Below are positions 39,030 through 40,954 of a stretch of 64,000 nt of DNA, piece by piece (the first letter of the stretch is position 1; every line of letters starts with the position of its first letter). The stretch comes from Altererythrobacter sp. ZODW24 (lineage in GTDB: Bacteria > Pseudomonadota > Alphaproteobacteria > Sphingomonadales > Sphingomonadaceae). The notes below the pieces were generated by a model that did not search any database, had not been told where the DNA came from, and saw only the letters and a program-made list of their open reading frames with translations. The DNA lies in NCBI RefSeq assembly GCF_003344885.1, contig NZ_CP031155.1, positions 372,001-436,000 of the forward strand, in the 5' to 3' direction. Position numbers and translations under genes: made by a program.

Positions 39030-39812
39030 ATGGCCAGCGCGCCTCCATCCAACTTGCCACTCATGTATAATGACCTGATGCCGCTGAACAGCCGCGACCA
39101 TGCAACGTGGAAAGCGCGTCAGACGGATAAGGCTCCTTGGCTGGTTGGCCAGCATGCTATCCCGCTGACCACTGACGAGTTCATTCAAGCGCAGCGTAAC
39201 TTCCCAATCGTGTTCGCCAGCGGCGAATCGCCAACACCGCTTGCGCTTATGGGTCTGAACGAAGGCGTGAACACCTTCGTCGACGCAGAAGGCACTGTGA
39301 CCGAGCCAGTTTACATCCCGGCCTATGTCCGCCGCTATCCGTTCCTGCTCGCCAAACTGCAGCAGGACTCGGAAGAAATGTCACTTTGCTTCGATCCAAC
39401 GAGCGACGTTCTGGGCGAATTCGATGATGGCGAACCGCTGTTTGACGACGAGAAAATGCCCAACGACCGCGCAAACGGCTTGCTCGAATTTTGCCAACGC
39501 TTCGAAGAAGCGGGCCAGCGCACGAAGAACTTCGTCGATGAGTTGAAGAAGCATGATCTTTTGATGGAAGGCGAAGTTGCCATTTCCACCAATCCGGAAG
39601 GCGACAAGCCATATGTCTATCGTGGCTTCCAGATGGTAAATCAGGAAAAGCTCCGCGAAGTTCGCGGCGATGTACTGCGCACGTGGAACCAAAATGGTTT
39701 GCTTACACTGATTTATGCGCACCTGTTCTCAATGAACCTTATGCGCGACGTGTTCTCGCGTCAGGTGGCACAGGGCACCGCACCAGCGGAAGCAACCGAA
39801 GCAGCAAACTGA
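39030..39812 (+). CDS. sapC: SapC family protein
   Basis: The 260-residue protein resembles SapC, first named for a Campylobacter S-layer locus; function in sphingomonads is not settled. Visible are LPLMYNDLMPLNSRDHATWK, PIVFASGESPTPLALMGL, PVYIPAYVRRYPFLL and, in the C-terminal half, WNQNGLLTLIYAHLFSM. No signal peptide is seen. GGAGAATTCTC precedes the ATG at 39030; a frame 48 bases longer is open but has no site. In many sphingomonads sapC stands beside tryptophan-halogenase or TonB-receptor genes, not here. A small RNA candidate follows. Confidence 0.88.
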   Translation: MASAPPSNLPLMYNDLMPLNSRDHATWKARQTDKAPWLVGQHAIPLTTDEFIQAQRNFPIVFASGESPTPLALMGLNEGVNTFVDAEGTVTEPVYIPAYVRRYPFLLAKLQQDSEEMSLCFDPTSDVLGEFDDGEPLFDDEKMPNDRANGLLEFCQRFEEAGQRTKNFVDELKKHDLLMEGEVAISTNPEGDKPYVYRGFQMVNQEKLREVRGDVLRTWNQNGLLTLIYAHLFSMNLMRDVFSRQVAQGTAPAEATEAAN

Positions 39813-39823
39813 TTGTCTGATAC

Positions 39824-39842
39824 ATAGGGGCTTTCGCCCTAT
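39824..39842 (+). terminator. Weak hairpin after sapC
   Basis: ATAGGG (39824-39829) pairs with CCCTAT (39837-39842), 12 bases after the sapC stop. Without a T-run it may only partly stop transcription or protect the 3' end. Confidence 0.4.
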
Positions 39843-39857
39843 TGGTGCGGCCGGGGC

Positions 39858-39885
39858 TTGAAGAAGTCTCGGCCGTCGCTATTTT
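39858..39885 (+). promoter_or_regulatory. Putative promoter of the small RNA
   Basis: TTGAAG (39858-39863) and TATTTT (39880-39885) are separated by 16 bases, a fair match to a sigma-70 promoter. It would start RNA near 39892. The match is by eye. Confidence 0.5.
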
Positions 39886-39891
39886 AAGGGT

Positions 39892-39999
39892 GTCCAGACT
39901 GGCATCCCTCATAGTCAGTTTGGATGGTGGCACTTGCTTGCAGGTGCCTCCCTCCCTGAACCTTGGCCACCTCGTGCGACATGCACGGGGTGGTTTTTT
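39892..39999 (+). ncRNA. Candidate ~108-nt small RNA with C/U-rich anti-SD-like loop
   Basis: The segment between sapC and the convergent amidohydrolase has the layout of a trans-acting bacterial sRNA. Hairpin 1: CCAGACTG (39894-39901) with CAGTTTGG (39916-39923), loop containing ATCCCTC. Hairpin 2: GGCAC (39929-39933) with GTGCC (39944-39948), extended by inner pairs. Next is an unpaired stretch with CCTCCCTCCC (39947-39956), able to pair with Shine-Dalgarno sequences. Last is an 11-bp terminator stem with six T. A promoter fits upstream. CCUCCUCCC-bearing sRNAs (alpha-r14, CcsR) are known in Alphaproteobacteria; kinship is only suggested. No reading frame of note is present. Confidence 0.65.
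39967..39999 (+). terminator. Strong Rho-independent terminator of the small RNA
   Basis: CCACCTCGTGC (39967-39977) pairs with GCACGGGGTGG (39983-39993) through 11 pairs including one G-T, loop GACAT, then TTTTTT (39994-39999). It lies 8 bases before the stop of the opposite-strand gene. Confidence 0.9.
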
Positions 40000-40006
40000 A
40001 TGGGAC

Positions 40007-40954
40007 CTACTCAGCGGCTTGGCGGAAATCCGATGGCGGGGCGAGCGCTGCGGTCTCATTGGCCAGCTTTCTCACAAGGCCCGACAACAGATCGACAATT
40101 GAGCCAGCACTATCGTTCAGTTCCTCGCGCGAATCGCCCAGATAAGCGCTCCGGCAAACTTCGAGCTGTAGCGCATGGATGTTTTTCTGCGGAGCTGCGT
40201 GGCGATCAAGAACATAACCGCCTGCATAGGGCCGGTTATGTGAGGCCCGCTCGCGCCGCTCCTCCAGATGGGTGAAGGCGGCCGCAGAAAGGCTCCGAGC
40301 GCTGGATGCACCGAACCGATCGCCGATCACAAAGTTAGGTGCCGGATTGCCATATCGCTCCACCGAAAGTGGCGGCATTGAATGCAGGTCAAGCAGCAGC
40401 GCAGCTCCCCAGCGGCGATGCAGGTCACCGAGCATCGCGGTAAGCCGATCATGATAAGGGCGGTGAATATGCTCGATCCGTTCCTCAAGCTCGGCACGCT
40501 GCAATGGTCGGAGCCAGACTTCGCCTGTTGCCGGCAGCCGCCGCGGGATCAGTCCAAGCCCTGTGCGGGCTCTTCGAGTGCTAACCTCGCGGCGAGGGAA
40601 ACCTAAGCCTCCCTCCACCATCGTCCAGTCGACATCGCTTTCAGCACGATTGAGATCGATCATCGCACGCGGTGCATCCGCCACCAGCAGAGCAGCGCCG
40701 GTTTCTGCCGACACGCGGGACGCAATCACGTCAATCAGCCGATCTTCCAGCTTCAGCCGGGAAGAATCAGAATCACGCATCGATTTCAATACATCAGAGG
40801 GATAGTTCCGCCCGCCATGCGGCGCTGCAATCAACACAGGAATTGGCGATGGACGAGGTGCGTTGAAGCGGAATGCGGGCATATTTGCCAAGCCGGGCAA
40901 CTTCCCGCCGCTCTCCATCTGCGAATCGCTCGCTGTGTCCTCCGAGGAAGTCAT
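40007..40954 (-). CDS. N-formylglutamate amidohydrolase family protein
   Basis: The 315-residue protein belongs to the N-formylglutamate amidohydrolase (HutG-like) family, zinc-dependent deformylases of histidine degradation and related N-acyl cleavage. Seen are IPVLIAAPHGGRNYPSD, APRAMIDLNRAESDVDW, LLLDLHSMPPL, FVIGDRFGASSA and NRPYAGGYVLDRHA, covering the expected metal-binding Asp/His/Glu sites. No hut genes are near, so the substrate is open. It is divergent from cpdR, with 95 bases between starts, as in several Alphaproteobacteria. Confidence 0.88.
   Translation of the reverse strand: MTSSEDTASDSQMESGGKLPGLANMPAFRFNAPRPSPIPVLIAAPHGGRNYPSDVLKSMRDSDSSRLKLEDRLIDVIASRVSAETGAALLVADAPRAMIDLNRAESDVDWTMVEGGLGFPRREVSTRRARTGLGLIPRRLPATGEVWLRPLQRAELEERIEHIHRPYHDRLTAMLGDLHRRWGAALLLDLHSMPPLSVERYGNPAPNFVIGDRFGASSARSLSAAAFTHLEERRERASHNRPYAGGYVLDRHAAPQKNIHALQLEVCRSAYLGDSREELNDSAGSIVDLLSGLVRKLANETAALAPPSDFRQAAE

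Follow-up and report, generated by a model that had tools for sequence, protein, structure and literature searches.

Does the short interval between a putative sapC gene and a convergent amidohydrolase gene of Altererythrobacter sp. ZODW24 hold a gene for a small RNA and, if so, to which family of regulators does the RNA belong? The window analyzed here is a stretch of 64,000 nucleotides from contig NZ_CP031155.1, and positions below refer to the window unless a contig is named. A first-pass annotation of the window had proposed that an unannotated sRNA lies between the two genes, acts in trans on ribosome binding sites and is kin to alpha-r14 and CcsR. Comparison of genomes indicates that the sRNA gene is indeed real and widely conserved: of the 150 genomes compared within the GTDB family, 123 have DNA homologues (E ≤ 0.1), a number of which are short, partial matches.

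Gene Order and Promoter

The upstream neighbor, at 39030–39812 on the forward strand, is putatively sapC, a name taken from the first-pass label only. The gene at 40007–40954 on the reverse strand is called a putative N-formylglutamate amidohydrolase-like gene (FGase) on two grounds, the first-pass label and the reported linkage of alpha-r8 RNAs to FGase, with which the label agrees. In the window it ends 7 bases past the sRNA end, tail-to-tail. Both neighbors are conserved. Among 31 fetched loci, the order of FAD gene, sapC, RNA, reverse FGase and response regulator is mostly maintained, the exceptions being L009, which has no FAD match, and L011 and L028, which have FGase only. A 20-base seed probe matched at least 120 stretches in the named genome collection. 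Among the 120 matches listed, sapC is codirectional and upstream in 106, FGase is convergent alongside the RNA in 106, and both arrangements occur together in 94. One probe match, in a Syntrophobacterales record (L070), has the appearance of a chance match. It is noted that in five Sphingobium loci (L077, L115, L134, L144 and L165) the RNA is present after sapC and the FGase gene was not detected alongside.

The promoter-like pair reported earlier was found at 39858–39885 on the forward strand, with a −35 element TTGAAG (39858–39863), a 16-base spacer and a −10 element TATTTT (39880–39885). The TTG of the −35 element and a TA-rich −10 element hold a fixed register in all 31 aligned relatives; the DNA farther upstream is otherwise unrelated, with 27% identity among them. 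A generic promoter scan of the area did not call the TTGAAG/TATTTT pair. Around the −35 box lies a dyad, GCGGCCGGGGCTTGAAGAAGTCTCGGCCGT (39847–39876, no strand assigned), which was called terminator-like. Similar dyads are present in a few relatives (L002, L003, L020 and L021) and absent from most, and the dyad may be a remnant of the sapC terminator or a regulator site. The MmgR promoter has also been reported with a dyad (PMC8401924).

A Conserved and Covarying Three-Hairpin RNA

The predicted sRNA of about 108 nt (39892–39999, forward strand) folds into three hairpins with a minimum free energy of −55.6 kcal/mol, versus −34.5 ± 3.7 kcal/mol for shuffled sequences (z −5.69, a value reached by 0 of 200 shuffles). 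Hairpin 1 (39892–39925), with 12 pairs in the window fold and both-side changes in 11 of 13 pairs, carries a C/U-rich loop, AUCCCUCAUA, that is a possible second anti-Shine-Dalgarno site; CCCUCA or CCCUUU is found 5′ of the seed in 109 of the 120 probe matches listed. Hairpin 2 (39926–39951) is variable in sequence, and a helix with compensatory changes forms here in 31 of 31 individual folds. The third hairpin is a Rho-independent terminator (39965–39999) with a 13-pair stem at 39965–39995 and six T ending at 39999; 99.5% of its cells are paired across 31 homologues. Terminator-like sites in the area by themselves are not above chance (3 versus 2.2 in shuffles), so the case for the terminator and the sRNA comes from conservation and not from the count of such sites. 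The hairpins and the strong six-T terminator of the first-pass annotation are thus borne out.

The promoter, the hairpins, the C/U-rich seed and the terminator are conserved in all 31 aligned relatives. In this alignment the 5′ half is variable but paired (52% identity), and the seed and terminator are almost invariant (91%). The 5′ half alone yields z values of −2.8 to −7.0, with a mean of −4.6, in 31 of 31 relatives. A consensus computed with MAFFT and RNAalifold missed hairpin 2 through misalignment, and it was replaced by individual folds and a named structure. When folded individually, each of the 31 sequences has three hairpins. With the named structure, both-side changes are seen in 21 of 34 pairs and 85.3% of cells pair across the 31 homologues. 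The covariation score is 0.289 versus 0.173, and 0 of 500 shuffles reach 0.289. Upon sliding of the partners, pairing falls to 38–46%, although the named structure came from a member of this set, which tilts the slide control in favor of the structure.

The statement that the interval holds no reading frame needs some modification. Two mechanical frames, 39842–40102 and 39934–40275, cross the sRNA. Since the homologues differ by indels that are not divisible by three, no reading frame is conserved.

The Seed Region

The seed, CCUCCCUGAACCUUGGCC (39951–39968, forward strand), consists of the alpha-r8 core CCUCCCU and a family-specific extension, and CCUCCCUGAACCU within it is invariant in the 31 aligned homologues. 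The exposed C/U-rich stretch described earlier, CCTCCCTCCC, corresponds to 39947–39956, and its first bases are paired in the foot of hairpin 2. The exposed part is consequently CUCCCUGAACCUU (39952–39964). The core CCUCCCU is unpaired or nearly so in the homologue folds; in the window its first C is paired. Compared with the published 10-mer UUUCCUCCCU, the window has GCCUCCCUCCCU, and UUCCUCCCU is found in some relatives only.

Assignment to the Alpha-r8 Family

The Rfam model RF00519 scores the window at 18.1 bits, below the gathering cut-off of 41 bits, which reflects curation rather than the biology of the family. The same model matches 9 of 20 relatives at 25–36 bits. At the same locus in another family member (G213), the RNA scores 42 bits with RF00519, above the cut-off, and 86 bits with R1, a covariance model that was built from 31 family sequences only, in which the seed and terminator carry most of the weight and hairpin 2 lies outside the model. 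R1 and RF00519 were run on the same 149 genomes of the order. The script comparison covered 62 R1 matches found in other families, excluding a few weaker ones and second copies; 60 of the 62 coincide with RF00519 loci by script and the remaining two (G150 C148 and G188 C156) by eye. Many RF00519 loci of other families adjoin FGase. In the reverse direction, a model (R2) was made from 15 alpha-r8 RNAs that lie outside the family, 13 of them FGase-linked; it recovers all f1 loci tested as well as the window, the latter at 18.9 bits (E 0.0017).

It has been reported that the alpha-R8 RNA adjoins FGase in most species and has a shared core, UUUCCUCCCU, and a terminator (PMC12559287). The window RNA has the CCUCCCU core, a hairpin before the core, a Rho-independent terminator after it, the FGase locus and the reciprocal model matches. 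It is best read as an FGase-linked alpha-r8 RNA, a relative of MmgR, SisA and SuhB (RF00519), that has diverged in sequence to below the Rfam cut-off, which is why Rfam misses this copy. What is new here is the member of a known family; the regulator class itself is already known. Other sub-threshold Rfam matches were judged to be chance, including a PyrR site (29.6 bits versus a cut-off of 54), RNAI, anti-hemB, isrB, SorY and HepC. The literature searched on sRNA maps of other sphingomonads contained nothing about this locus.

The alternative kinship, that of an alpha-r14/CcsR-type RNA as first proposed, draws on the C/U-rich seed and on the presence of CCUCCUCCC at the junction of hairpin 2 and core in some relatives. 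That motif is not conserved, being absent from the window and from other relatives. The Rfam ar14 model (RF02344) does not match the window at E ≤ 10 and matches just one of 20 relatives, weakly (27.5 bits versus a cut-off of 58.8), whereas RF00519 matches 9 of the 20 and the locus beside FGase is the alpha-r8 locus. The proposal was accordingly abandoned, and we give it almost no credence.

The position of the stem between convergent genes, where it could stop transcription of both, would also suit a different explanation, that the element merely ends the sapC transcript, as its 3′ UTR and terminator, or stops sapC and FGase from both sides as a two-way terminator, without a regulatory role. 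We regard this as very unlikely in view of the promoter that is conserved downstream of sapC and ahead of the RNA, the unpaired and invariant seed that precedes the terminator, the homology to studied sRNAs and the retention of the RNA in the five Sphingobium loci with no FGase gene detected alongside. The same loci bear on cis action, in which the RNA would control the mRNA of the convergent FGase gene as an antisense or at its 3′ end. The tail-to-tail arrangement (with a gap of 7 bases in the window, and with FGase convergent in 106 of the 120 probe matches listed) would be favorable to this. Retention of the RNA where FGase is not detected on that side, a seed suited to ribosome sites and the trans action of SisA (PMC12559287) render cis action highly improbable. 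The preferred reading, very probably a trans-acting alpha-r8 sRNA aimed at ribosome sites, draws good support from the conservation and from homology to alpha-r8 RNAs studied by experiment.

A Paralogous Class

The genome of ZODW24 (G000) contains a second alpha-r8 copy at C1:1842747-1842825 (L060:1501-1579) with an altered core, CCUCUCCCAA. It adjoins a CoA-transferase-like frame and an AAA ATPase frame. This class is what Rfam accepts as suhB in the family: the RF00519 matches inspected in the family are sited elsewhere, have CCUCUCC replacing CCUCCCU and mostly follow a GCCUUUYAGGC hairpin. The exception is G213, in which the FGase-linked copy itself passes RF00519 (42 bits). Because the accepted copies are CCUCUCC paralogues at other sites, a model-based annotation would miss the gene in the window.

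It is conceivable, though we consider it doubtful, that a split of alpha-r8 in sphingomonads gave two sister RNAs, one at the FGase locus with the seed CCUCCCUGAACC and one elsewhere with CCUCUCCCAA, and that an ancestral regulon is shared out between them, with hppA, for instance, going to one and the TonB receptors to the other. In the own genome, TonB-receptor starts show an excess of exact matches to the second seed (p 2e-5, a post hoc observation), with GGGAGAG at 4 of 20 TonB-receptor starts versus 1 of 332 controls. In a second genome (G006), GGGAGAG was found at 0 of 30 TonB-receptor starts, with no enrichment. As a separate observation, the ribosome sites of the TonB-receptor starts L228–L247 often read (TT)GGGAGAG, which is complementary to the core of the second copy.

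Candidate Targets and Proposed Mechanism

Some pairing of an anti-Shine-Dalgarno seed is to be expected at a great many ribosome sites. When the three genomes of the genus were searched for YCAGGGAGG, 27 places were found, fewer than in the reversed control. Apart from the antisense of the RNA itself, the only one of these places common to all three genomes is the ribosome site of hppA, which encodes the H+-translocating pyrophosphatase. It lies 9–10 bases before the GTG, reads UCAGGGAGG in G000 and G002 and CCAGGGAGG in G001, and by inspection can form 10 Watson-Crick pairs and one G-U pair with UCCCUCCCUGA. The predicted duplex of −22.5 kcal/mol is equaled or exceeded at 3 of 332 control gene starts (taken with a simple ORF caller from 400 kb plus the window), which is a rank and not a significance test. 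The strongest control duplexes (L256, L260, L253 and L268) are mid-gene or unconvincing. Based on this predicted pairing, hppA is the likeliest candidate target. It should be mentioned that the sequence had already been seen when the hppA idea was formed, with the Caulobacter paper as a guide. In other genera, where several hppA loci were not cleanly readable, the readable ones showed only a G-rich core at the ribosome site, and pairing with hppA as a family-wide rule is unsupported beyond the genus.

For the window RNA, TonB receptors of the own genome show no enrichment as targets (p 0.37), and the TonB-receptor starts of a second genome show mild enrichment for the window seed (p 0.009). 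A perfect TCAGGGAGG site was also observed 7 bases before the ATG of a membrane-protein-like frame (L302, G000 C1:462401-462409); it was not found in two sister genomes.

An hfq gene is present in the own genome. At G000 C1:139459-139884, two Hfq domains lie in a single open frame of 238 codons, a tandem Hfq.

The present data support a conserved gene, its structure, its seed, its locus and its homology to RF00519. We hold with considerable confidence that the RNA is an FGase-linked sphingomonad alpha-r8 sRNA, with its own promoter and terminator, that would silence unlinked mRNAs at ribosome sites, hppA being the likeliest candidate among them. Transcription would start at about 39892 from its own sigma-70-like promoter and stop at 39999, and Hfq would probably bind at the U-tail. 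The single-stranded CUCCCUGAACC, perhaps along with the CCCUC loop of hairpin 1, would then pair with unlinked mRNAs at their purine-rich ribosome-binding sites, and the pairing would block translation of the targets. This scheme predicts repression of hppA; a connection with carbon or energy status would be equally conditional.

Comparison with Known Alphaproteobacterial sRNAs

MmgR of Sinorhizobium meliloti, an alpha-r8 RNA, has a link to polyhydroxybutyrate, and for SisA of Caulobacter crescentus there is a sponge, CrfA. MmgR (RF00519) resembles the window RNA in its core and terminator, and the relatives match the Rfam model weakly but consistently (25–36 bits); in contrast, MmgR is 77 nt long and the window RNA about 108 nt. 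SisA (alpha-R8) resembles the window RNA in position. Both are beside and downstream of FGase, with an exposed CCUCCCU core before a Rho-independent terminator (PMC12559287). Seed pairing is how SisA represses hppA and the TonB receptors, with Hfq facilitating the annealing (PMC12559287); hppA is a target proven in Caulobacter and predicted here. However, the window RNA of about 108 nt has a covarying 5′ hairpin and its own hairpin 2, its core continues as GAACCUUGGCC, and the UUU before the core is not conserved.

SuhB of Sphingopyxis granuli TFA, 61 nt long, silences thnR with Hfq (PMC6563040). It shares with the window RNA the broad family, the order of bacteria and an Hfq-dependent silencing at the mRNA start, whereas its 61-nt length seems to fit better with the CCUCUCC paralogous class represented by C1:1842747-1842825. 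AbcR (alpha-r15) has three hairpins and two C/U-rich unpaired sites as well (PMC7143759), but cmscan reported no AbcR for the region, and the two RNAs would be alike only in how they work.

The finding adds a positional counterpart of SisA in a large and well-sampled family where the Rfam model picks a different paralogue, and it gives the FGase-linked alpha-r8 branch a covarying full-length structure. Model-based suhB calls in sphingomonads should be treated with caution, as they may not be the FGase-linked gene. It also names hppA as a testable target that the sphingomonad RNA may share with SisA.
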